Virus record (IMG/VR): IMGVR_UViG_3300043436_000790
Coordinates: 1 to 35,644 of that record
Length of the DNA: 35,644 bases
Strand: one strand, 5' to 3'
Source of the DNA: a virus
Positions 2,011-35,644 of the stretch are shown piece after piece. The notes under the pieces are model-generated. The model was not told the origin of the DNA. It saw only the letters and a program-made list of their open reading frames with translations, and searched no databases. The translations under genes and the position numbers were made by a program. Positions within the stretch are counted from its first letter, which is position 1. Every line of letters begins with the position of its first letter.

Positions 2011-3183
2011 TTAATTTTGTGCAATACCGTTCTTTTTAATCACTAGGCTAGGATCTAGTTTCTTCATCCTGTCCACTATCACTTGGCAGTACTTTGGATC
2101 TAGTTCCATTCCGTAGCACTTACGCTTGAGTTGGTGCGCTGCTACCATTGTAGAAGCCGATCCTAGAAAAAGATCTGCAACTAATTTGGTATCATCTCCC
2201 CAATTATTCAAAAAGAACTCAACTAATTTCAAAGGCTTTTGAGTTGGATGCACTCTGTCTCTTGCGTCTGCTGATCCAAAAGCACCCATCCACTTCACTC
2301 TTGCTATTAGTCTTTTATGCTTTTGCTTACTCCAACAAAGCTCAAATGAAGAACCTACTATTTTGTCAGCATCCTCTCCTCCTCTCTTATCCCATACAAT
2401 CCAGCTTCCTTCATTCTTATTTGGTATTAATTCCGCAAAATAATCTGCTCCCCAAATAAAAATTTCATTACAATAATCAAAACAAGCAAAAATTGTATTT
2501 ATTAATTCAGGGGTAAAATCGTTGTGGTCTCCAATTACTTTACTATATTTTTTACCACCTCCTTGAATCTTTGCGTTCTTTGATCCTTTTATATTTGAAT
2601 AGTCAGTATCTAAAAACATACCATAAGGAGGATCAGTAAAAACCATATCAGCCTTTTCTCCATTCATCAACTTTGCAACCGTGTCCGAGCAGGTACTATC
2701 TCCACAAAGCAAACGATGTTCTCCTATCTCAAATAAATCACCTAGGACAATATCCGTTTGAACTTCATCGGGCATCTCATAGTCATCCTCCTCCGCTTCT
2801 AGTTCTTCCTTGATACTAAACTCTGGAATATCAAGTCCCCATTCTTCTACCTCTTCCGCATCCCATTCATTGGCAATCATATCCCAATCCCACTCACCGA
2901 AGCCTACATTATCCTTGATGATAAACTGCTTCTGTTCTTCATCTGTTAGATCATGAGCAAAGATCACCGGAACTTCCTTGAGACCTGCTTCCTTACAGGC
3001 TTTCAATCTCATGTTACCACCTAGGACTATCATATCAGCATTAACTACCACAGGTCTGATCTCGAGCATCTTTGGAAACTCTTGAATAGACTTGACTAGC
3101 TTTCTGAACTTATCATCCTTGATAATCCTAGGGTTGTTCGGATTGCTTTTTATCTCTGAAAGTTTGACTACTTTGATATCCAT
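2011..3183 (-). CDS. ParB-like domain fused to DNA methyltransferase
   Basis: A 390-residue fusion. Residues 1-90 form a ParB/Srx-type N-terminal domain with the GGNMRLKA signature at 55-62. After an acidic linker (about 122-142) comes an amino-methyltransferase domain with TDPPY at 183-187 (catalytic motif IV), HPTQKP at 312-317, and the SAM-binding loop DLFLGSAST at 337-345 followed by GMELDPKYC at 358-366. Catalytic motif before SAM motif indicates the beta class (N6-adenine or N4-cytosine). The SAM loop reads GSAS where GSGS or GSGT is usual. Phages use such enzymes to mask their DNA from host restriction. The gene is absent between the same neighbours in the other copy, so it behaves as an optional cassette. 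The recognition sequence cannot be predicted. Confidence 0.92.
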   Translation of the reverse strand: MDIKVVKLSEIKSNPNNPRIIKDDKFRKLVKSIQEFPKMLEIRPVVVNADMIVLGGNMRLKACKEAGLKEVPVIFAHDLTDEEQKQFIIKDNVGFGEWDWDMIANEWDAEEVEEWGLDIPEFSIKEELEAEEDDYEMPDEVQTDIVLGDLFEIGEHRLLCGDSTCSDTVAKLMNGEKADMVFTDPPYGMFLDTDYSNIKGSKNAKIQGGGKKYSKVIGDHNDFTPELINTIFACFDYCNEIFIWGADYFAELIPNKNEGSWIVWDKRGGEDADKIVGSSFELCWSKQKHKRLIARVKWMGAFGSADARDRVHPTQKPLKLVEFFLNNWGDDTKLVADLFLGSASTMVAAHQLKRKCYGMELDPKYCQVIVDRMKKLDPSLVIKKNGIAQN

Positions 3184-3374
3184 TAATCTAGTTTTTCGTT
3201 TCCTACTACTTCAGGTTCTTCTATTTCTTTTTCCTCTAGTTTGTTGGGAATGCCTGCATCATCTAGCAACTTCTTAAACAAGTAAGCGAGATCAAAGATT
3301 CCTTGCTCTTCATCTTCAAGCGTTACGCTGATCACCTTTTTTGCACTATTGAAATTCAATTGAAATTTTGACAT
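3183..3374 (-). CDS. Small acidic protein, copy A
   Basis: A 63-residue protein starting MSKFQLNFNS. An in-frame extension further upstream has no conserved start, and the second copy (34748-34945) starts at the same methionine, so the ATG at 3374 is chosen. It has a beta-rich N-terminus, then an amphipathic helix (DLAYLFKKLLDDAGI), then a Glu-rich tail. The tail varies between copies (63 versus 65 residues) while the first 50 residues are the same. The stop codon touches the methyltransferase start here; in copy B it is followed directly by terS. No family is recognised. Confidence 0.75.
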   Translation of the reverse strand: MSKFQLNFNSAKKVISVTLEDEEQGIFDLAYLFKKLLDDAGIPNKLEEKEIEEPEVVGNEKLD

Positions 3375-3390
3375 GGTTGGTGGTTTTTTT

Positions 3391-3672
3391 TTAAAATGGT
3401 AGATCGTATTCTTCGGCTTGATAAGGTGCAGCAGGCATCTTGTTCTCTTGTGGCTTTGCACCTTCCTCCTTCTTGTAATCGTTCAAAGTGATTGCCACAT
3501 CCTTCCCGTATTCGTTTGGCTTATCGTATATGTTAATGTTTAGGTTGACATACTTCTTCCCGTTGTAGGTGTAAGCGTGTGCCTCTGCATCGGATAGGCA
3601 GATAGCTGCCGTGATCCAAGAATCACTTCTCTTCTTGCCGTTTCCTAGTCTTGTTTTTGGTTTGTTGTCCAT
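3391..3672 (-). CDS. Putative single-stranded DNA-binding protein, copy A
   Basis: A 93-residue protein whose C-terminus, EEYDLPF, looks like the acidic D-x-PF tip by which bacterial and phage SSBs recruit partners. The body (about residues 15-65, SWITAAICLSD... YVNLNINIYDKP) is beta-strand-rich, as expected for a small OB fold. An in-frame start 48 bp upstream would overlap the previous gene's tail; the ATG at 3672, five bases after the upstream stop, gives a cleaner start and is conserved in copy B. SSB function is inferred from the tip and the replication context. No classic SSB core motif is seen. Confidence 0.6.
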   Translation of the reverse strand: MDNKPKTRLGNGKKRSDSWITAAICLSDAEAHAYTYNGKKYVNLNINIYDKPNEYGKDVAITLNDYKKEEGAKPQENKMPAAPYQAEEYDLPF

Positions 3673-3676
3673 CTGT

Positions 3677-4012
3677 TTATTTATTTGATTTTCTTCTTCT
3701 CTTGATCGGCTTATTTTCAATCACCCTTTCTTCTGTGTTAAAAGGCAACTTGGTTACATCCTCCACCTTTTCCTCTTTGTACCAGGTAGTGTTTGCTTCG
3801 TTCGTGTACCAATTATATACAGCAGTAACTAGTTCTGCCCTACAGCTACTGCACCAATGTGAGAAGGTGTGCTTCGTGCTGATGTAGGTAGTGTATAGGT
3901 GGATCAATTCCGTGTATACTGTCTTGGAATAATTGCGAATAAAGGAGTGCTTCTTATAGCACTCGTATAGTTCGAAGTGCTTCTTGAATAGTTCTAAATC
4001 TTCTGCTGTCAT
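3677..4012 (-). CDS. Conserved hypothetical protein with CxxC motif, copy A
   Basis: A 111-residue protein rich in Tyr, His and Lys, with a single HWCSSC motif near residues 52-57 and a strongly basic C-terminus (KPIKRRRKSNK). The N-terminal half is predicted helical. With only two Cys and nearby His it could bind a metal, but this is uncertain. It overlaps the upstream membrane-protein gene by 4 bp. A second copy runs off the right window edge (35342-35644) and keeps the CxxC motif and basic tail. No family is recognised. Confidence 0.72.
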   Translation of the reverse strand: MTAEDLELFKKHFELYECYKKHSFIRNYSKTVYTELIHLYTTYISTKHTFSHWCSSCRAELVTAVYNWYTNEANTTWYKEEKVEDVTKLPFNTEERVIENKPIKRRRKSNK

Positions 4013-5765: not shown

Positions 5766-6830
5766 TTAAAATTGTGTTATAGTTTCTTGATTAAATTGAA
5801 AATCTTCTATTCCGGATCTGTGGAACTTCTCCACCCTTGGTTCTTGAACCGGTTCTGAACCGGTTACTTTTTTTGCATTATCAAAGTAGTCAAAGCCATC
5901 CTTCCCCATGTACCTATTCTTTTTTCTGTTGAAGTCTATGGTGATCTCAAAGGGAATACCTACTAGTTTCTGCTTCTTGATCTTATCCGTTTTGATGATG
6001 ACTGTGGTATCATTCGGATCTGTAGCCCTGTTAGGTCTCCATACTGAAATAGAATTGTCCGTACTATCTGCGAATGTTCCACCACCTTTGATTTGGTACA
6101 GGGAAGGTGGAGGGTAGTTTCCATCCTTTTCTTTCCTAGGTGTTGTCTGGTGCATCACTAGGTGATAGGATACATTGTTTTTCCGTGTGAAGTTTATCCT
6201 GTCCATCATAAACCTAGAAGCGTACAGGTGTTCTGGTTCTCCGGCTGTCATCTCATGCCTGATCTTTATGTATGGATCTACCACTACCGCCTTGACATCC
6301 TTCTCCCACACTAGGTACTCAAATACGCTTTCAATCTGATCTATCGTAAAGTCAGGTACTCCATTCTTTTCAGGGTAGACAAAGTAGAAGTTGTCCTTCA
6401 CCATGTCAAAAGCCTTCAAGTATTCCTGCTCAGATACATCAAAATTCTTGTAGAACCTATCCGTGCTTTTTCCTAGGATAGTGTGAATGATGTCATCAAA
6501 GAATTCATCCGGTGGGTAGTTCTCAGGGCTGAAGAAAGCAAACTTCCATCCTTCATTTATTGCCTTCAATACACAAAGGAAAATCAAGAACTGTGACTTG
6601 CCTTCATTGTTATATCCTGTCCACAAGTTAAATTCTCCTGCCTTCCAAGACCACATTTTATTCTGTATACCTCCACTACTGATTTGATCTAGATCCCTTA
6701 CATAGGTCTTAGATCCTGCCTCCTTACCCTTACGGAAGTTCTGAAGCATTGAATCCCTCTGCCCTGCAAAGGTCTTGATTGATCCTTCACAGAAGTCTAG
6801 GTCAAATATCTTTTCTGATTTCTTTTTCAT
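5766..6830 (-). CDS. Replicative helicase-like RecA-fold ATPase
   Basis: A 354-residue protein with a RecA/DnaB-type ATPase core: Walker A GYNNEGKS at residues 72-79, Walker B AVVVDPY with D185, and a motif-3 glutamine in VMHQTTPRK (Q228). A KGGGTFADSTDNSI segment follows, as in DnaB and gp4/Twinkle C-terminal domains. There is no primase or DnaB N-terminal domain, so it is a helicase core only. It lies two genes after the initiator, the usual order of initiator, loader, helicase. An alternative is a DnaC-like or RepA-like ATPase, but the glutamine and the GGG-D segment favour the DnaB/RepA group. Confidence 0.82.
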   Translation of the reverse strand: MKKKSEKIFDLDFCEGSIKTFAGQRDSMLQNFRKGKEAGSKTYVRDLDQISSGGIQNKMWSWKAGEFNLWTGYNNEGKSQFLIFLCVLKAINEGWKFAFFSPENYPPDEFFDDIIHTILGKSTDRFYKNFDVSEQEYLKAFDMVKDNFYFVYPEKNGVPDFTIDQIESVFEYLVWEKDVKAVVVDPYIKIRHEMTAGEPEHLYASRFMMDRINFTRKNNVSYHLVMHQTTPRKEKDGNYPPPSLYQIKGGGTFADSTDNSISVWRPNRATDPNDTTVIIKTDKIKKQKLVGIPFEITIDFNRKKNRYMGKDGFDYFDNAKKVTGSEPVQEPRVEKFHRSGIEDFQFNQETITQF

Positions 6831-7135
6831 GTAGGGAAGTGTTTATCTATGTTCTCCTTCATCTCTTGGTAGCTTCCTGATCTAGTAGATACATCTTTGA
6901 ACCATTGCTTTTCGAATTGATTCCTGACTCTGATCTCATCTTGAAGCATCAAGGTAGTACCTTTTACCTCATAATCCATGATATTGATGAGATTTATATA
7001 CTTTTTTTGTAATGAATAAAGCCTCTTTAAGTTTACTTCAATCAAAGCCCAATTCTTTGTTTGCTGTGCTTGTACTATCATTCCCCAAATATCCCTATTC
7101 AAGTCATTCATTTTCCGTAGATCTTCCGCTTTCAT
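6827..7135 (-). CDS. Helical hypothetical protein between initiator and helicase
   Basis: A 102-residue, mostly helical, charged protein with no transmembrane segment. It starts one base after the initiator stop and overlaps the helicase start by 4 bp. In many phages the gene in this slot encodes a helicase loader or primosome adaptor, and an adaptor role is a reasonable guess from position. No loader motif such as a Walker A is present, so it would have to be an ATP-independent adaptor. Confidence 0.65.
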   Translation of the reverse strand: MKAEDLRKMNDLNRDIWGMIVQAQQTKNWALIEVNLKRLYSLQKKYINLINIMDYEVKGTTLMLQDEIRVRNQFEKQWFKDVSTRSGSYQEMKENIDKHFPT

Positions 7136-7136
7136 C

Positions 7137-7850
7137 TTACCACCAATTATCTTCTATCGTAGACTTAGGATACTTAGGTGGTTCTATACCTTTGCTTTCA
7201 TTGTATCCTGTACTTGCATTATTCTTCAGGTACAGATTGAAGGAGTTCTGCGCTTTGCTTATAGTCATTGCTTCTCCTTCCTTTAGTATCTTCCAATTCT
7301 TAAATGATTCCTTTATATTCTTTTCATCTAGGTTGTATATCTCTTGCATTCTAGTAAAGTATGGTCTATGCATTGGCTTTTCCTTTGCCATCTCTACCTC
7401 TACTTCATCCAAAGAAATCAAAGAGTCTTTATTTATTTCCTTCTCTAATTCTTTTACTTCTTTAGTTGGTTTCACTTGCGTTTCACTTGCGTTTCGTGTG
7501 CGTTTCACTTGCGTTTCACTATCGTTTCGCTCACCTTGGTAAGTATCATATTTACAGATAGTTAGCCGTGTCGTTATCGTTTCGCTTTTTAACACAATCA
7601 TTGAATCTTTTTCAAGCATTTTTAAAAACCTTAAAACCTTAGATTTGTTGATTTTCCATCTATTTGCCCAAGTTTCATAGGAGTATATGACCTCACCCCT
7701 ATTGACTTCTAGAAGTTGACCCTTGATCAAAACCTTTTTTGGTTCTATGTTAGCCGACATCAAAATGTCAAGCCACCATTTTAGATACTCCGGCTTAGAC
7801 CATACCCAATGATCTTGAAGTTGCCTGTGTACTTTAATCCATCCGCTCAT
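7137..7850 (-). CDS. Replication initiator (O-/DnaD-like)
   Basis: A 237-residue protein. The N-terminal part holds a winged helix-turn-helix (SYETWANRWKINKSKVLRFLK, residues about 57-77) of the type found in phage replisome organisers. A charged linker follows (about 104-150) with the repeated peptide SETQVK at 111-116 and 122-127. The C-terminal part resembles a conserved DnaD-like helical segment (about 160-210). The linker is encoded by six tandem 11-bp iterons, so the gene probably contains its own origin, as lambda O does. The gene is preceded by a strong terminator within a three-hairpin RNA (7862-7943), implying attenuation. Helicase gene downstream supports the role. Confidence 0.82.
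   Translation of the reverse strand: MSGWIKVHRQLQDHWVWSKPEYLKWWLDILMSANIEPKKVLIKGQLLEVNRGEVIYSYETWANRWKINKSKVLRFLKMLEKDSMIVLKSETITTRLTICKYDTYQGERNDSETQVKRTRNASETQVKPTKEVKELEKEINKDSLISLDEVEVEMAKEKPMHRPYFTRMQEIYNLDEKNIKESFKNWKILKEGEAMTISKAQNSFNLYLKNNASTGYNESKGIEPPKYPKSTIEDNWW
7469..7534. repeat. Six contiguous 11-bp iterons (candidate origin)
   Basis: Six head-to-tail 11-bp units with no spacing start at 7469, 7480, 7491, 7502, 7513 and 7524. Three read GTTTCACTTGC exactly; the others keep GTTTC and vary after it (GTTTCGTGTGC, GTTTCACTATC, GTTTCGCTCAC). A further lone unit starting GTTTCGCTTT lies near 7578. The period is close to one helical turn and is not a multiple of three, so it is not explained by simple codon repetition. 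Their place inside the initiator gene matches the lambda O and lactococcal phage arrangement of origin iterons. Confidence 0.85.
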
Positions 7851-7861
7851 TTTTTGTAAAT

Positions 7862-7894
7862 AAAAAAGCCTGCCAGGTAGGAGTCTGACAGGCT
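7862..7894 (-). terminator. Strong intrinsic terminator before the initiator gene
   Basis: Read on the minus strand, AGCCTGTCAG (7894-7885) pairs with CTGGCAGGCT (7876-7867) in a 10-bp stem with one G-U, loop ACTCCTAC, followed by TTTTTTA (7867-7861). It ends only 11-12 bases before the initiator ATG, so upstream transcription would stop here unless the hairpin is disrupted. Confidence 0.85.
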
Positions 7895-7943
7895 AGGTTT
7901 AGTAAACCTATGGAATCATTTTTGGCTCCTACCTCAAAAATGA
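7867..7943 (-). ncRNA. Three-hairpin leader with kissing loops (attenuator candidate)
   Basis: On the minus strand the transcript would fold into three hairpins. Hairpin 1 pairs TCATTTTTG with CAAAAATGA (7943-7916, perfect 9 bp, 10-base loop). Hairpin 2 is AGGTTT-ACT-AAACCT (7909-7895). Hairpin 3 is the terminator (7894-7867). The loop of hairpin 1 contains AGGTAGGAG (7934-7926 read on minus), which is exactly complementary to CTCCTACCT (7883-7875) in the loop and top of the terminator. The 9-bp pairing could form a loop-loop complex or an antiterminator that opens both stems. This resembles rep-leader attenuators of RNA-controlled plasmids; no known riboswitch class is recognised. Confidence 0.7.
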
Positions 7944-7975
7944 CTCGTGATGAACAAATATAATAAATTTTCCAA

Positions 7976-8128
7976 TTATCCTACTAAATAGCGTTTTTTT
8001 AGTTGGTTATAAATGCACATATAACTAACACCCATTTCTAAAGCTATGACCTTGGTAGGCACACGATCCTGCCATTTTTCAAAGATGACTATCTTCTCGT
8101 ATTCAGTTAGATTTCTCCTTCTTTTCAT
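7976..8128 (-). CDS. Short helix-turn-helix protein
   Basis: A 50-residue basic protein beginning MKRRRNLTEYEK. Residues about 20-47 (DRVPTKVIALEMGVSYMCIY and NQLKKR) form a plausible helix-turn-helix of the kind found in homeodomain-like and resolvase-like DNA-binding proteins. It overlaps the end of the upstream gene by 26 bp and ends 32 bp before the three-hairpin leader. As the last gene before the terminator-attenuator, it could bind that region, though nothing shows this directly. Confidence 0.68.
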   Translation of the reverse strand: MKRRRNLTEYEKIVIFEKWQDRVPTKVIALEMGVSYMCIYNQLKKRYLVG

Positions 8129-16444: not shown

Positions 16445-17038
16445 TTAGAATGGTTTTTTGTATCTGTTGCCTTGGTATCTTTCTGAGTATGGTCTGTGAT
16501 CTTCATAGTCACCCCTGCCTAGATTGATAGCTACCTTGTACTGATTGCTTACAGGTTGGATAGTAGTGACATCACTACCTGGATTCAAGTACTCCGGATA
16601 TTGCTCAGAGTTAGCGCATAGGTAATTGATAGCCCGTTCAGCGTACCATTCTGCATATCCCTTGTAGTATTGGCTTATGCTCTGCAATTCTGCGAAGGTA
16701 GGTTCTGTGATGTTCTCACTTTTGCGCTTCACTACCCCTTTATTTACGAACTTGTACTGCATCGCCATAGGCAATTCACCAAGCACATAGTTGAATAAGG
16801 TATCTGTTAGGTAGCTATCTAGGAAAGTCTTGTAGACTGCATTCCCTCCTTGACCAATAGTTCCTGCTGCAATGAGTTGAAGTATCTTATCATAAAGCGC
16901 AGTCCCACAGATAGGATGTATGTACCTATCCTGTGTCATCTTGATCACCTGAGTGACATTCTTCAGGTCAATATTTGCGGAAGCTACAGTGAAGTCTTTG
17001 AAGGACTGCTCACTGATCATCAATACATTTGCGCTCAT
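16445..17038 (-). CDS. Head-tail connector-like protein
   Basis: A 197-residue protein started at the ATG at 17038, which overlaps the portal stop by 4 bp; a 12-residue upstream extension inside the portal gene is rejected. It is helical (ANIDLKNVTQVIKMTQDRYI, LFNYVLGELPMAMQYKFVNK) with a disordered, Arg/Tyr-rich C-terminus (YSERYQGNRYKKPF). Helical bundle proteins of about this size directly after the portal are adaptor or head-completion proteins in Bacteroidota phages. The family identity is tentative. Confidence 0.68.
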   Translation of the reverse strand: MSANVLMISEQSFKDFTVASANIDLKNVTQVIKMTQDRYIHPICGTALYDKILQLIAAGTIGQGGNAVYKTFLDSYLTDTLFNYVLGELPMAMQYKFVNKGVVKRKSENITEPTFAELQSISQYYKGYAEWYAERAINYLCANSEQYPEYLNPGSDVTTIQPVSNQYKVAINLGRGDYEDHRPYSERYQGNRYKKPF

Positions 17039-19041
17039 CGTGATGTTTTTTCTACTACTACATTTCTTTTCCACTCATGTCTACAGAAAGGAGTTCTTCT
17101 TCCTGTGTTTGGATTGGTGTACCATCCTCCGCACAATTGAAAAACACTATAGCCTAGCTGATTGGATATGTTTTGAATCTCTTCCCGTGTAAAGAATAGA
17201 CCACTTCCGTATAGCCTTTCGCACAAAGGTCTAGATCCGCTCTTTGCATCAGGTACATTTGGTCTCTCTTCGTAGCTATATAGTACCTTGAATGAAGTCA
17301 CAGGTTGAAGCCTTTTGACTGCTGCCTCTCCTGCACGAGTCACGGATCTAGTGATCAACCCTTCACGGCTGATCTTCTCAACTAGTACCTGGTCATCAAT
17401 CAAAGTATTGATTCTTGAGATCACAGATGCTTCATCTATCCCTACTATTTTAGCAAGTTGTGGAATCGTGATGTTTTCATTCCTTTGAATCTGAGTTACG
17501 ATCTTCTTTTGTACTTCATTCAATAGGTACTCAGCGAATAGATCCTGCTTGATAAAGTCATCCATTGAAGAGAAGTGCATCTTTGTGCTTTCAATTACCT
17601 TGAATTTATCCTTTGCTATACCTTTGCCTTCAAACTTTTCAAGGATGGCTGCATCGTATTCTGAGATACTGCATTCAAGGTGGAGGTGATCAGAGAATCC
17701 TTGGGTAGGATCTGTGATTACATCTGTAGGAGTTACGATTTCAGTTCTTACAGGAAGTCCAATTAATTGGCGCAATTCATTTACATCCATAGATTCAACC
17801 ACCTTAGTAGCAATCAAAGGAGAAAGGCTATTCAAATAGTTGATGATGTCCTGTGATCCTTGGCTTTCCTTCTTCTCAATTGGTGCAAGTCCTAGCTTCT
17901 CTCTGATCTCATCCTGAGTCATGTTAGTAGAGATGATCTGCTCTGTGAATTGGAAGGAGATAGGTTCAGTCTTCTTGATTTCAAGTTCAGCGATAATATC
18001 ATTGAACTTCAAAAGGTAGTTGATGACTTCCTCAAGTGCTTGCTGCTTTGAATTCACATAAGTATTCTGAAATAACTCAGAAGCCTCTCTCATTTCTGCT
18101 CTACCACCTAGCTGACCTTCAGTCTTAACTCCAAAAAGCATTGGGCTAGTGACCTTATGACCTGTGAAGATCTCCTGCTGAACTGTCTTATTTAGAAGGT
18201 CAAAATGCTTATCAAGTTCTGTTCCGGATAGATCAATGATTGAAGGTTCGTTCTCCTTTGAATCGTTAAATGCAAGCATGAATTTTCCTGCATTCTTAGA
18301 TCCTGAGAACTTGTCCTTGAATTGTCTTTCAATACGATCCTCTTCCTCTTGGCTTACCTTACCACCATTCAAGTTGATTAGCTTACTTGAGAACATTCCG
18401 TTGTTTATGGTGTTCAAATGGTATTCCCCGATAGAGATATCTAGTTCAATATAGGAGATTGCACCTCTGTAGTCAGGTAGGCTGTAGGTGTTTGCTCCTG
18501 CTCTGTATTCCTTAAAGTAAAGGATCTGTGTGCCTGTAGTATTGTTAGGATCGAATGCAGGATAGGTCTCGAAATCAGGTCTAGGATTGACATTGTCATT
18601 CTTGATCCAATTATCAGAGACATAGAATTCACTATTGTCAGCGTTGGTTCTTACCTTATAATAGTCAACATGGTAAAGTTCTGCAATCTCACCCGTGCCT
18701 TTTGTCCAAATCACCTGAAGGTAGTAGCCTCCAAAGATGGATAGATCAGTCACTAGCTTTTTAGTCAACTCATTCAAGCTTTCCTGCTTGGTGTTGATCC
18801 GATCAATCAAGCCGAATGCCTTTGCCTTCTGCATCTCATCTTCAGACTTGACAGTCCACCCATTGCCACAGATGTAGTCTACCTTACCCGTTATGATAGC
18901 GTTATTCTTTGCGCTATTGTTGTAGATCCGTAGTAGATAATTTGGGTAGTCATTCTTCTCCCCGTAGTAGATGTATTCCTTCCCCTTAACTTCTTTGTAA
19001 ACGGGCAAAGGCACTTGATCAAACTTGAATAATTTTATCAT
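17035..19041 (-). CDS. Portal protein with C-terminal extra domains
   Basis: A 668-residue protein. The first 450 or so residues have the portal layout: N-terminal strand-rich clip region (KEVKGKEYIYYGEKNDYPN), then wing and stem helices (NNAIITGKVDYICGNGW; KLVTDLSIFGGYYLQVI; a SPMLFGVKTEGQLGG segment; AEMREASELFQNTYV). Beyond this a winged helix-like stretch (about 519-575, ITIPQLAKIVGIDEASVISR) and a Cys/His-containing end (GGWYTNP at 638-644, CRHEW at 653-657) are unlike a plain portal of 450-520 residues. The tail resembles minor-head-protein fusions. It forms the packaging vertex. Confidence 0.82.
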   Translation of the reverse strand: MIKLFKFDQVPLPVYKEVKGKEYIYYGEKNDYPNYLLRIYNNSAKNNAIITGKVDYICGNGWTVKSEDEMQKAKAFGLIDRINTKQESLNELTKKLVTDLSIFGGYYLQVIWTKGTGEIAELYHVDYYKVRTNADNSEFYVSDNWIKNDNVNPRPDFETYPAFDPNNTTGTQILYFKEYRAGANTYSLPDYRGAISYIELDISIGEYHLNTINNGMFSSKLINLNGGKVSQEEEDRIERQFKDKFSGSKNAGKFMLAFNDSKENEPSIIDLSGTELDKHFDLLNKTVQQEIFTGHKVTSPMLFGVKTEGQLGGRAEMREASELFQNTYVNSKQQALEEVINYLLKFNDIIAELEIKKTEPISFQFTEQIISTNMTQDEIREKLGLAPIEKKESQGSQDIINYLNSLSPLIATKVVESMDVNELRQLIGLPVRTEIVTPTDVITDPTQGFSDHLHLECSISEYDAAILEKFEGKGIAKDKFKVIESTKMHFSSMDDFIKQDLFAEYLLNEVQKKIVTQIQRNENITIPQLAKIVGIDEASVISRINTLIDDQVLVEKISREGLITRSVTRAGEAAVKRLQPVTSFKVLYSYEERPNVPDAKSGSRPLCERLYGSGLFFTREEIQNISNQLGYSVFQLCGGWYTNPNTGRRTPFCRHEWKRNVVVEKTSR

Positions 19042-32510: not shown

Positions 32511-32749
32511 TTCTTGTATTGGGCTTCTTTGTCTTTGTTATAATCCTTCAAATATGCTAGGGTGTTTAGGTACTCGATCACCCTTAGATCATAGGCTTCG
32601 TTTACTGTGATGTTCTGGAAGTCTGCAACTTGTTTAGTGCTAAATACCCACCCCCACCTTGCCATAAACGGACTACCTTCTCCGCCATCTCCTTGTTGAC
32701 CATTGAGGAGATTATTGTATTGCTTATTAATTCGCTGAATAATTGACAA
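32483..32749 (-). CDS. -1 frame extension of tail chaperone (GT-like)
   Basis: This frame overlaps the chaperone gene in -1 and continues for 88 codons after the T run to a stop at 32483, giving a fused product of about 242 residues. It has no convincing independent start near the overlap (only TTG at 32764 and an internal ATG at 32665 that would give 60 residues). The extension ends in a helical part (NEAYDLRVIEYLNTLAYLKD, then KDKEAQYKKWQ). This is the classic gpG/gpGT arrangement. Confidence 0.65.
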   Translation of the reverse strand: MSIIQRINKQYNNLLNGQQGDGGEGSPFMARWGWVFSTKQVADFQNITVNEAYDLRVIEYLNTLAYLKDYNKDKEAQYKKWQLQQKLK

Positions 32750-33210
32750 AAAAAAAGCATACAACTATATACTTCTATGAATTTTGCCCCTAGCAAATCA
32801 TCCGCTACCACATCATGAGGCACTACCCCATAGCCTTGATACTTGTCCCCTAGCATAGGCAGAAAGAAACAGGCAGCAATCTTGTTAAGTTGCATGATCT
32901 CACCACTAAAGGCTAGAATGTCAATGTATTGCCCTGCCGTGATCTCGTGTAGTTCAAAGCAGAATTTATACCTATTCTCACCTACCTGCAAATAGTCTAC
33001 AGGCTTGGTCTCTGGGATGTTATCAAAGAAAGCTAACTTCTCAGCGTACTCATGCATTAGATCCCTGTACTTGAAATCATCATAGTACTCTTCATCCTTC
33101 CCGTCTACGATTGCAAGCATCTTCTGCTGCTTCTCGATTATGTTCAGATTAGCGTTTGCCTCGATATCGTACAGACTGATGAACTGCCCTACTGTAAGTT
33201 TATCCCACAT
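32602..33210 (-). CDS. Tail assembly chaperone-like protein, copy B (G-like)
   Basis: A 202-residue soluble helical protein starting MWDKLTVGQFISLY, 32 bp after TerL. The slippery run lies at residues 152-154 and the gene continues in the original frame for 48 more codons. A chaperone of this kind guides tape-measure folding during tail assembly. It is unusual in position: the tape measure is about 8 kb further on. A head-tail protein with a non-functional overlap is the alternative. Confidence 0.68.
   Translation of the reverse strand: MWDKLTVGQFISLYDIEANANLNIIEKQQKMLAIVDGKDEEYYDDFKYRDLMHEYAEKLAFFDNIPETKPVDYLQVGENRYKFCFELHEITAGQYIDILAFSGEIMQLNKIAACFFLPMLGDKYQGYGVVPHDVVADDLLGAKFIEVYSCMLFFCQLFSELISNTIISSMVNKEMAEKVVRLWQGGGGYLALNKLQTSRTSQ
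32746..32760 (-). promoter_or_regulatory. -1 frameshift slippery site
   Basis: Minus strand reads ATG-CTT-TTT-TTT-TGT in the chaperone frame, containing the heptamer T-TTT-TTT. A -1 slip keeps both tRNAs paired and enters the open frame ending at 32483. The same nine-base run occurs in copy A (28-36). No strong downstream pseudoknot was identified by eye. Confidence 0.65.
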
Positions 33211-33242
33211 AGTTTTAAATATATTTTTTTGGTTTGATGTAT

Positions 33243-34403
33243 CTATCGGAAAGAGTACTTCCCTAGGTGACTATTCGAGATCTTGTTCACCACCGAATAG
33301 CGGAGAGCATCCAAGGCATGGTTAAAATTATCCACGGGCTTGTTGGTCATCTGCCCATTCTTGTCTTCGATATACTTGTAGTTCCTGAGTTCCTTAATCA
33401 GGTTGTAGCTTCCCTCTGTTGCATACAGGTTGTATCTTCGGATGATGTCTATCCCTAGATTGATAGCACCCTTCACCACAGGCTTTACATTCCAACCCAT
33501 CCTATAGATCTCCTCTATACTTTTAGGTTCGGCACTATCCGCAAATATCTCATTCTGCTTCTCAAGTCCCAGGTTCTGCATCTCTTTAGCTATGTCTTGG
33601 TTGGTCATCCCTGTCCGGTAGATCAATTCATCTACATACATAGCATCATCTAGGATGTAAGTTCTCACCAAGGCTGTAGGATCATTGCTAAATCCAAAGT
33701 CAAGACCATAGGCTACTAGCTTTGCCTCCTTTGGGATCTGCTTGCAAGTACTGAAAGTATATACCAAGGCTCTGCTTTGCCCCCGTTCTCCTAGCCCATA
33801 GACCCTCCAATAGTTCTCATCTATCTCCTTGAGCCTTTCAATCTCTGCTTTGATCTCTGCCCCTAAAAATGGGTTATCCTTGTAGGTAGTTTGGTAGAAC
33901 TCGACATCCTTCCTAGGTAGAACCTGATCATATATCCAATGGAACTCCTCCGAAGGATTGAAATCAATAATCACCTTCTCATTTGTTCTGAAAAGCAACT
34001 GCTGCCAATCTTCAAAATTCAGTTCGTTCGCCTCATTAGCAAAAAGTAAATCCCTCTTTCTACCCCTGATCTTCTGAGGCATATCAAGGGATATGAATTC
34101 AATCGTGTTGCCGTTTAGCTTGTATTCGCTTGCTGTCTTTGAGTGATCATCTTCTGAGTAGATCTCATGATCCTTCAGGATGGTTAGGAAGTCACGCATT
34201 ACAGTACCCCTCAAAGCAGGGTAGGTCTTTCGACAGATCGTGATGATCTTACCTGTGTTCTTTTCGCAGTAAGAAAAAATAATCCAGAGAAGAATGTTAT
34301 AGGTCTTCCCCGATCTTGTGCCACCTTGCTGTACTACTATCTTACTTTTGCTAGTCTCAAGGTGACGGAATACCTTATTTGTTTTGATGCTAGATACTAT
34401 CAT
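33243..34403 (-). CDS. terL: Terminase large subunit, copy B
   Basis: A 386-residue TerL equal in length to copy A, with all motifs intact: GGTRSGKT (27-34), DLLFANEANE (118-127), and D235, D289 and D365 of the nuclease. Seven substitutions separate it from copy A: 2 (Ile), 220 (Cys), 309 and 310 (Val-Val), 313 (Ala), 327 (Tyr) and 331 (Gly). Most nucleotide differences are silent, so both copies appear to be under selection for function. It overlaps terS by 14 bp. Confidence 0.96.
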   Translation of the reverse strand: MIVSSIKTNKVFRHLETSKSKIVVQQGGTRSGKTYNILLWIIFSYCEKNTGKIITICRKTYPALRGTVMRDFLTILKDHEIYSEDDHSKTASEYKLNGNTIEFISLDMPQKIRGRKRDLLFANEANELNFEDWQQLLFRTNEKVIIDFNPSEEFHWIYDQVLPRKDVEFYQTTYKDNPFLGAEIKAEIERLKEIDENYWRVYGLGERGQSRALVYTFSTCKQIPKEAKLVAYGLDFGFSNDPTALVRTYILDDAMYVDELIYRTGMTNQDIAKEMQNLGLEKQNEIFADSAEPKSIEEIYRMGWNVKPVVKGAINLGIDIIRRYNLYATEGSYNLIKELRNYKYIEDKNGQMTNKPVDNFNHALDALRYSVVNKISNSHLGKYSFR

Positions 34404-34725
34404 CTAGGATCTTCACCTCAAAAAGTTTCTTGCCATCTGCACCGGTTAACTCCTGCCTTTCGACATAGCCTCTGGATTTGCCTTGAGTTTTCAAGAAGAA
34501 AATGATGGCAGTAGTATCACCGCCATCAATCTTCTGATCTAGTTTCCCTTCTACAAAATCAAGCCTAGAATTCCTGCCTTCTATTACAGCCTGTTCTAAG
34601 CCATCCTGTTCAATCCAACTATATAGGGTTGGTCTTTCTATGCCCAATGATTTTGAGGCTGTAGAAAGGTTGCCAAATGCCTTCACAATGGCTTTCTCTA
34701 TAACGGATCTATCAGGCTTTTTCAT
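34390..34725 (-). CDS. terS: Terminase small subunit, copy B
   Basis: A 111-residue TerS. N-terminal residues 1-28 match copy A exactly, and after residue 74 there is one change, but the middle (29-74) carries 18 substitutions, including 32, 36, 41, 45, 48 and a block at 60-71. The centre lies between the helix-turn-helix and the TerL-contacting end, so it may alter packaging-site choice. It follows the small acidic gene directly, since the methyltransferase is absent here. Confidence 0.88.
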   Translation of the reverse strand: MKKPDRSVIEKAIVKAFGNLSTASKSLGIERPTLYSWIEQDGLEQAVIEGRNSRLDFVEGKLDQKIDGGDTTAIIFFLKTQGKSRGYVERQELTGADGKKLFEVKILDDSI

Positions 34726-34747
34726 ATTGTAAAATTTTGTAAAAAGA

Positions 34748-34945
34748 TTAATCTAGTTTTTCGTTTCCTACTTCTGTAGCATCTACTGCTTCTACTTCTT
34801 TTTCTTCTAGTTTGTTCGGAATGCCTGCATCATCTAGCAACTTCTTAAACAAGTAAGCAAGATCAAAGATTCCCTGCTCTTCATCTTCAAGGGTTACGCT
34901 GATCACCTTTTTAGCACTATTGAAATTCAATTGAAATTTTGACAT
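34748..34945 (-). CDS. Small acidic protein, copy B
   Basis: A 65-residue homologue of the protein at 3183-3374, starting at the same MSKFQLNFNS and diverging only in the Glu-rich tail (EVEAVDATEVGNEKLD against EIEEPEVVGNEKLD). It is separated from the upstream SSB-like gene by a 110-bp gap that holds a tRNA-like element, where copy A has a gap of only 16 bp. Function unknown. Confidence 0.75.
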   Translation of the reverse strand: MSKFQLNFNSAKKVISVTLEDEEQGIFDLAYLFKKLLDDAGIPNKLEEKEVEAVDATEVGNEKLD

Positions 34946-34966
34946 GGTTTTTTTGTTTTGGTTTTG

Positions 34967-35047
34967 TAGTGAGGGTAGGATTCGAACCTACAATGTGCTA
35001 CCTCTTACTGAGGACTTGGATCGCCAAACCGCATTACGCTCCTCACT
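34967..35047 (-). other. tRNA-like cloverleaf without a recognisable anticodon
   Basis: On the minus strand AGTGAGG (35047-35041) pairs perfectly with CCTCACT (34974-34968), followed by discriminator A (34967). A canonical T-arm, GTAGG-TTCGAAT-CCTAC, lies at 34991-34975. Between them are two hairpins: TTTGG-CGAT-CCAAG (35028-35015) and CCTC-AGTAA-GAGG (35013-35001). Neither has a seven-base anticodon loop with U33, and no D-arm/anticodon-arm pair of normal geometry could be drawn. Total length is 81 bases. It could be a degraded tRNA, an atypical tRNA or a tRNA mimic. No CCA is encoded. Confidence 0.6.
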
Positions 35048-35055
35048 ATCTTTTT

Positions 35056-35337
35056 TTAGAATGGTAGATCGTATTCTTCGGCTTGGTAAGGTACGGAAGG
35101 CATCTTGTTCTCTTGTGGCTTTGCACCTTCCTCCTTCTTGTAATCGTTCAAAGTGATTGCTACATCCTTGCCGTATTCGTTTGGCTTATCGTAGATGTTG
35201 ATATTCAAGTTCACATACTTCTTACCATTGTAGGTGTAAGCGTGTGCCTCAGAATCGGATATACAGAAAGCAGCTGTGATCCACGAATCACTTCTCTTTT
35301 TGCCGTTTCCTAGTTTGGTTTTTGGTTTGCTGTCCAT
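35056..35337 (-). CDS. Putative single-stranded DNA-binding protein, copy B
   Basis: A 93-residue homologue of the protein at 3391-3672, with the same C-terminal EEYDLPF tip and the same preferred start (MDSKPKTKLG). Substitutions are few and mostly conservative. It ends 9 bp before the tRNA-like acceptor strand. A start 48 bp further upstream would again lie within the preceding gene. Confidence 0.6.
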   Translation of the reverse strand: MDSKPKTKLGNGKKRSDSWITAAFCISDSEAHAYTYNGKKYVNLNINIYDKPNEYGKDVAITLNDYKKEEGAKPQENKMPSVPYQAEEYDLPF

Positions 35338-35341
35338 GTGT

Positions 35342-35644
35342 TTATTTGGTTGGTTTTCTTCTTCTCTTGATCGGCTTATTTTCAATCACCCTTTCTTCTG
35401 TGTTGAAAGGCAACTTGGTTACATCCTCCACCTTTTCCTCTCTGTACCAGGTAGTGTTTGCCTCATTCGTGTACCAATTGTAGACAGCCGTTACTAGTTC
35501 TGCCCTACAGCTACTGCACCAATGTGAGAAGGTGTGCTTCTGACTGATGTAGGTAGTGTATAGGTGTATCAATTCCGTATAGACTGTCTTCGAATAGTTT
35601 CGAATAAAGGAGTGCTTCTTATAGCACTCGTAAAGTTCGAAGTG
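35342..35644 (-). CDS. CxxC protein, copy B (5' end cut by window)
   Basis: The last 100 codons of a homologue of the protein at 3677-4012; the first 11 codons lie beyond the right edge. HWCSSC and the Lys/Arg-rich tail (KPIKRRRKPTK) are kept. The frame is open to the window end. No function is known. Confidence 0.7.
   Translation of the reverse strand, partial: HFELYECYKKHSFIRNYSKTVYTELIHLYTTYISQKHTFSHWCSSCRAELVTAVYNWYTNEANTTWYREEKVEDVTKLPFNTEERVIENKPIKRRRKPTK

Follow-up and report, generated by a model that had tools for sequence, protein, structure and literature searches.

A probable RNA attenuator with complementary hairpin loops precedes replication genes of Bacteroidota phages

Introduction

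The replication operon in a 35,644-nucleotide stretch of viral DNA (IMG/VR record IMGVR_UViG_3300043436_000790, positions 1 to 35,644; hereafter the window) is preceded by three hairpins, and the loops of the first and the last are complementary. Does this arrangement act as an RNA switch on the replication initiator and, if so, do the loops meet within one transcript or between transcripts? A reading made from the sequence alone had proposed a kissing-loop attenuator ahead of a phage replication initiator, switched either by pairing between the first hairpin and the terminator loop or by an antisense RNA copying one of the loops. We followed up this proposal by folding the leader, comparing it with its relatives in IMG/VR and in cultured phages, and weighing the mechanisms compatible with it.

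Results

The leader and its operon

The minus strand from 7962 to 7848 carries, in this order, a promoter -7 box, hairpin H1, two bases, hairpin H2, hairpin T, a run of six T, eleven bases and an ATG. The features of the leader and of the operon downstream are as follows.

7955-7962, minus strand: promoter -7 box TATATTTG of the Bacteroidota TAnnTTTG type, from the sequence; a box of the same type precedes H1 in most relatives
7913-7946, minus strand: hairpin H1, 12-bp stem including one G-U pair, 10-nt loop AGGTAGGAGC (RNAfold; stem pairs covary)
7926-7934, minus strand: L1, the kissing sequence AGGTAGGAG of the H1 loop, exact complement of 7875-7883, covarying in relatives
7894-7910, minus strand: hairpin H2, TAGGTTT-ACT-AAACCTA, within the H1-T linker (RNAfold)
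7868-7893, minus strand: terminator hairpin T, 9-10 bp, 8-nt loop ACTCCTAC (sequence and RNAfold; stem pairs covary)
7875-7883, minus strand: kissing sequence CTCCTACCT of the T loop, its last two bases being the start of the 3' arm
7862-7867, minus strand: T6 tract, where the terminated leader RNA is predicted to end (sequence)
7137-7850, minus strand: DnaD-like helicase loader (replication initiator), 237 aa (phrog_2514, E=7.6e-33)
6827-7135, minus strand: ORF of 102 aa in the same operon, no family matched (ORF list and profile search)
5766-6830, minus strand: DnaB-like helicase in the same operon (phrog_5482, E=9.7e-34)

The three minus-strand hairpins of the earlier proposal, the last a terminator with T6 near the ATG, can be read directly from the sequence between 7946 and 7862. 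The arms of H1 lie at 7946-7935 and 7924-7913 around a loop at 7934-7925, those of H2 at 7910-7904 and 7900-7894, and those of T at 7893-7885 and 7876-7868 around a loop at 7884-7877, with an extra A-U pair in the RNAfold structure bringing the T stem to 10 bp. In other groups of leaders, an unpaired A/U-rich stretch of similar length stands in place of H2. The T6 tract ends 11 bases ahead of the initiator ATG (7850-7848), a placement shared by the relatives. As folded by RNAfold, the 110-nt leader forms the three hairpins at -34.4 kcal/mol (z = -5.0), and none of 200 shuffled sequences folds equally well.

Transcription is expected to start a few bases past the -7 box, near 7950, and the RNA bounded by promoter and terminator is predicted to be about 90 nt long. 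As the promoter box lies just upstream of H1, the segment 7962-7862 would constitute the entire leader of the replication operon, and the 50-aa HTH ORF upstream, which ends at 7976, places this leader at the operon's head. The initiator claim held in that the downstream gene is a replication gene, while its specific identity is corrected to a DnaD-like helicase loader. The product of 5766-6830 also matches a DNA primase/helicase family (phrog_239, E=1.4e-28) and a second DnaB-like family (phrog_19, E=6e-11). A small upstream ORF (ATGATTCCATAG, in H1) was considered and rejected, as it is not conserved in the relatives.

The two loops change together

The H1-loop sequence AGGTAGGAG is the exact complement of CTCCTACCT in T over 9 bases, as had been claimed; seven of the nine T bases belong to the T loop and the final two (CT) open its 3' arm. 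By a rough estimate, two loops of about 10 nt match by chance over 7 nt or more with a probability near 1e-3. A search with the DnaD-like protein retrieved 76 relatives in IMG/VR, whose upstream regions contain the same promoter, H1, H2 and T, with loops that differ yet match each time (GTAGGAG/CTCCTAC, GTGGAAG/CTTCCAC, GTCGGAG/CTCCGAC, GTGAGAG/CTCTCAC, GTGGTAG/CTACCAC). The outcome named beforehand as fatal to the proposal, loops that fail to covary, is absent.

Across 22 distinct leaders, covariation over the whole structure scores 0.260, far more than the 0.132 of shuffles; slid partners give 0.046-0.135. Although MAFFT misaligns one subset of these 22 relatives, 87% pairing is preserved in the loop-loop helix, and two pairs of this helix have changes on both sides. 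In three pattern scans of IMG/VR, every full-length true leader shows a perfect loop complement of 6-9 bases, so at least 6 nt against an average of about 4 nt for mismatched loop pairings. Scan matches with low complementarity were set aside as chance pattern matches or contig-end artefacts (loci L313 and L318).

One fixed scaffold, with H1 stem GAATCATTC/GAATGATTC and T stem CCCGACAG/CTGTTGGG, bears the loops GTGAGAG, GTGGTAG and GTGGAAG, and a nearly identical one with a slightly altered T 3' arm bears GTAGCAG; loop identity therefore varies on a constant scaffold. Divergence at loop positions (0.215) only slightly exceeds that at stem positions (0.11-0.20), a gap too small to establish strong diversifying selection on specificity. 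The H1-T linker measures 15-19 nt in 66 of the 98 distinct leaders. Judged from these sequences, conservation of the loop-loop pairing with compensatory change is well supported, and the leader is very probably a real RNA switch that limits a replication starter protein.

Similar leaders precede unrelated genes

Leaders of this kind occur at about 200 IMG/VR loci, with more than 12 different loop pairs. The scans used an H2/T pattern (85 loci), a pattern for the group 2 variant (120 matches, about 25 of them true leaders and the rest chance) and a pattern for group 3 (63 loci). A strict finder that demands the promoter box, H1, T, a T-run and a loop complement of at least 7 nt recovers the leader of the window, and returns 192 matches over the fetched loci (2.94 Mb), while the reversed control yields 12, a contrast that is not a genome-wide rate because the loci were fetched partly for these leaders. 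The window leader scores 104.5 bits with the covariance model R2, the window being among the sequences from which the model was built.

The genes that follow encode DnaD-like proteins, Lin1244_N (PF14297), DUF6291 (PF19808), O-like proteins and other short initiator-like proteins. Some HNH endonuclease genes are also preceded by a kissing-loop leader of their own (L357:89-190; L318:3624-3732; L155 near 7673, minus strand; L342:1232-1337, minus strand), whose loops differ from those of the other leader in the same phage. Two leaders with different loops thus share one phage at L155 (GTGGAAG and GGTAGCAG) and at L342 (GTGCAG and GTGCCTCAC), while L318 holds a T loop for GTTGCAG together with a second leader carrying GTTACGG. 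The presence of one leader type before unrelated genes argues against autoregulation by a single initiator protein. Because some HNH endonuclease genes have such a leader too, the placement ahead of a phage replication initiator, although correct, described the element too narrowly.

At L334:2908-3009, a group-3-like terminator (loop CTGCAT) and an upstream hairpin with the matching loop ATGCAG stand before a 57-aa ORF; the sequence context differs from that of the other leaders, and the next gene is not replication-related. A pattern scan of bacterial and archaeal genomes gave 11 chance matches and no leader. The covariance model R1 found no group-3 leader in 395 Bacteroidota genomes, which is weak evidence given the strict filters and the lack of a positive control.

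Group 3 repeats the loop sequence at the start codon

In group 3, H1 is short (AGGU-GUUGCAG-ACCU) and the linker is unpaired and A/U-rich. T contains an invariant AGUA/GAA internal loop, which we take to resemble the bulged-G (sarcin-ricin) motif, under a 3-bp stem that presents the loop CUGCAAC. A third copy of the H1-loop sequence lies at the start codon, at most 75 nt after T, in 32 of 38 distinct group-3 leaders. It takes the form of GTTGCAG directly before the ATG, or of GTGCAG or GGCAG a few bases before it, and these versions covary with the T loop. Of 34 copies at other places in the group-3 contigs, one is near a start codon. Leaders of groups 1 and 2, among them that of the window, lack the third copy.

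Cultured phages carry the leader

Clear leaders were found in six cultured phages, reached via DUF6291 and by accession: Flavobacterium phages tooticki6-1, 11b, elemoA and FCL-2, Polaribacter phage P12002L and Olleya phage Harreka_1. The genome of tooticki6-1 (Muminvirus) has two, with loops GTGAGACG and GTCGTCG. In 0.306 Mb from cultured phages the strict finder reports 11 matches, and shuffled sequence totalling 0.917 Mb gives 4; in line with that rate, three or four of the cultured-phage matches look like chance (A/T-rich, with no gene downstream). The gene directly after T is a replication initiator in P12002L and FCL-2 (phrog_678, O-like, and phrog_428), while in tooticki, 11b, Harreka and elemoA at least one short ORF separates T from a DUF6291-type replication gene.

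Cellulophaga phage phi19:3 has a 9-base match (CTCTCACAA/TTGTGAGAG) with an unclear first hairpin, and the strict finder does not report it. No convincing leader was seen in Bacteroides phage BT2 (most of the genome) or in phiST and phi38:1 (first 50 kb each), and no cultured phage proved close to the window by DNA or by the DnaD-like protein. Flavobacterium phage FPSV-S2 has a simple terminator and no kissing-loop leader; its promoter box, short leader and terminator hairpin (L358:28040-28126) are possibly a simpler attenuator or a small RNA.

Other features of the window

The ends of the window hold copies of the terminase region (1-2020 versus 32721-34740, and 3182-3979 versus 34747-35644) that are 91% identical. 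A gene (2011-3183, minus strand) that joins a ParB-like N-terminal domain to an N6/N4 DNA methylase is absent from the right-hand copy. These end copies suggest a unit of about 32.7 kb and either a chimeric assembly or a circularly permuted genome that was closed with a second strain. The portal ORF (17035-19041, minus strand) is unusual in that its portal domain is followed by a winged-helix domain (HTH_24, residues 507-552).

Discussion

A self-limiting attenuator as the favoured mechanism

The architecture, the compensated complementarity of the loops and the place before replication genes are observed. We favour, with moderate confidence, a leader that works as an RNA-only, self-limiting attenuator of the replication operon with negative feedback, for which we infer termination, the sign of the effect, action in trans and control of copy number. 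In the nascent RNA, the H1 loop would capture the T-loop sequence before T closes, giving read-through and synthesis of the initiator. L1 precedes the T loop in the transcript by about 40 nt and can thus seize that loop's sequence while T is incomplete; in the window, this capture would extend two bases into the 3' arm of T. Terminated leader RNA would build up with gene copy number, and the exposed T loop of the released leader would pair in trans with the H1 loops of new transcripts. With L1 occupied in this way, T would form freely and initiator synthesis would drop. In group 3, the T loop may also pair with the start-codon copy of the H1-loop sequence and block translation.

The geometry of groups 1 and 2 bears on this mechanism. 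By hand estimate, the 12 bp of H1, the 7 bp of the loop helix and the 9 bp of T would amount to about 28 bp if stacked, and the linker consists of 2-3 nt plus the H2 hairpin. On this estimate, end-to-end stacking with both stems closed would be impossible unless H2 opens, so that pairing in cis and the closed terminator are likely competitors, which in turn would make the released leader RNA a natural competitor in trans for L1. The high stability of the T hairpin in isolation counts against our mechanism, since efficient read-through is then not obvious.

The loop-loop attenuator of the sequence-only reading is strongly supported by the covarying pairing, by its recurrence before unrelated genes and by the cultured phages. 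Its separate antisense RNA fared worse: inspection of the window by eye, which bears on promoters of the TAnnTTTG type, revealed no such box facing the leader from the plus strand.

Alternative explanations

It is possible, though somewhat unlikely in our judgement, that the loops kiss exclusively within one RNA and set the strength or folding speed of the terminator with no action in trans, any regulation passing through transcription speed, the ribosome or a protein gripping H1. Pairing restricted to cis would account for the covariation equally well, and it agrees with the narrow range of linker lengths and with the invariant AGUA/GAA internal loop beneath the kissing hairpin of group 3, as if geometry counted. 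The narrow range may just as well reflect a rigid structure, formed by kissing in cis, that aids termination. However, in groups 1 and 2 the estimate of about 28 bp against a short linker suggests that the loops could kiss with every stem intact only under strain, and the third copy at the group-3 start codon is left unexplained.

We find it improbable that the terminated leader is a small RNA whose main targets are other messages of phage or host, with the loop match serving to store it in an inactive form. A promoter and a terminator do bound an RNA of about 90 nt, and in group 3 the T loop has a match at the start of the gene that follows, but the loops change freely while staying self-complementary, which a host target would forbid. 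Moreover, start-codon copies elsewhere in group-3 contigs are confined to the single case in 34, and the loop 7-mers have few other copies in the window.

A leader that senses a protein or a ligand, through initiator autoregulation, a ribosomal-protein-like leader or a riboswitch, would suit the attenuator position ahead of the operon and the conserved internal-loop motif of group 3. We nevertheless hold it to be highly improbable, as the same leader type precedes unrelated initiators, nothing except the pairing is conserved in sequence across the groups, and Rfam yields no family at gathering score, with weak matches below threshold. Finally, although a single 9-base match could arise randomly, chance or a DNA-level inverted repeat (an operator) hardly merits belief in view of the compensated changes in many lineages, the placement of the matches in loops and the T-run that always follows, and a protein site would keep its sequence, which the covariation contradicts.

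Lifestyle and possible roles

Neither a tyrosine integrase (PF00589) nor a serine recombinase (PF00239) was detected in 31 leader-bearing records, many of about 30 kb, which, with the low-power scan of 395 Bacteroidota genomes, makes a role in lysogenic immunity like that of P4 unlikely and fits lytic phages. More plausible than lysogenic immunity are copy control, timing or exclusion between co-infecting phages. As a speculative extension of the self-limiting attenuator, which we advance tentatively and consider doubtful, apparently lytic Bacteroidota phages might carry RNA-only replication specificity groups. Leader RNA would throttle the initiator of phages with the same loops, which would act as self/non-self tags in copy-number control and mutual exclusion, and escape would come from switching both loops together.

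If our mechanism is true, Bacteroidota phages widely control their replication through an RNA element in which one short transcript holds both the antisense loop and its target. Isolates in which it could be tested already exist (P12002L, FCL-2, tooticki, elemo and 11b). The more than 12 natural loop pairs on similar scaffolds are candidate orthogonal RNA attenuators for Flavobacteriia, for which few tools exist.

Comparison with known systems

The earlier statement that no phage element of this form had been described agrees with the Rfam and literature searches. For the leaders of the window and 19 relatives, Rfam has no family at gathering score, and relaxed thresholds give weak matches, such as RT-14 at 27.2 bits (gathering score 48.1), which in a group-3 relative extends no further than the AGUA/GAA hairpin. 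The openly searchable literature describes no such element.

In ColE1, RNA I and RNA II have fully complementary hairpin loops of about 7 nt whose sequence sets specificity. What they regulate is an RNA primer instead of a protein-coding leader, and two opposed transcripts are needed. The leaders described here share the complementary hairpin loops and differ in belonging to a protein-coding transcript.

Replication is also tied to a noncoding RNA in extrachromosomal mycobacterial prophages, where such an RNA initiates replication beside parABS and compatibility groups exist; no description of a loop-terminator attenuator was found there (PMC7157519). In pT181, kissing hairpins control termination before rep (PMC5703833; PMC3753616). 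As in pT181 and pIP501, the leaders studied here combine hairpins ahead of a rep gene with an intrinsic-type terminator just before the start codon. These plasmids use a convergent antisense RNA, whereas no opposing TAnnTTTG box was seen by eye on the plus strand of the window. Their pre-emptor pairs with the 5' arm of the terminator, whereas the complementary bases here are those of the apical loop and two more at the start of the 3' arm.

In P4 immunity, the leader gives rise to the CI RNA, which pairs with complementary targets on either side of its own sequence and so causes premature termination (PMC4825925). The present leaders likewise precede phage replication genes and, in all groups, hold an effector (the T loop) complementary to an upstream target (the H1 loop), a trait expected of immunity RNAs of the P4 CI and P1 C4 kind; a sequence relation to P4 was probed by Rfam scans. 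A second target downstream of the effector is seen in group 3 only (32 of 38 distinct leaders), where the order of H1 loop, T loop and start-site copy is that of seqA, CI RNA and seqC in P4 (PMC4825925). Processing of a longer transcript yields the CI RNA of P4 (PMC4825925), whereas the RNA here would end at an intrinsic terminator, whose own loop, unlike in P4, is the element that pairs. The CI RNA serves P4 in lysogeny, whereas no integrase was detected in the 31 leader-bearing records. Taken together, RNA attenuation by kissing loops is a known principle, and the use of a terminator loop as the antisense element within a single leader, with many natural specificities and in Bacteroidota phages, appears to be a new build of it.
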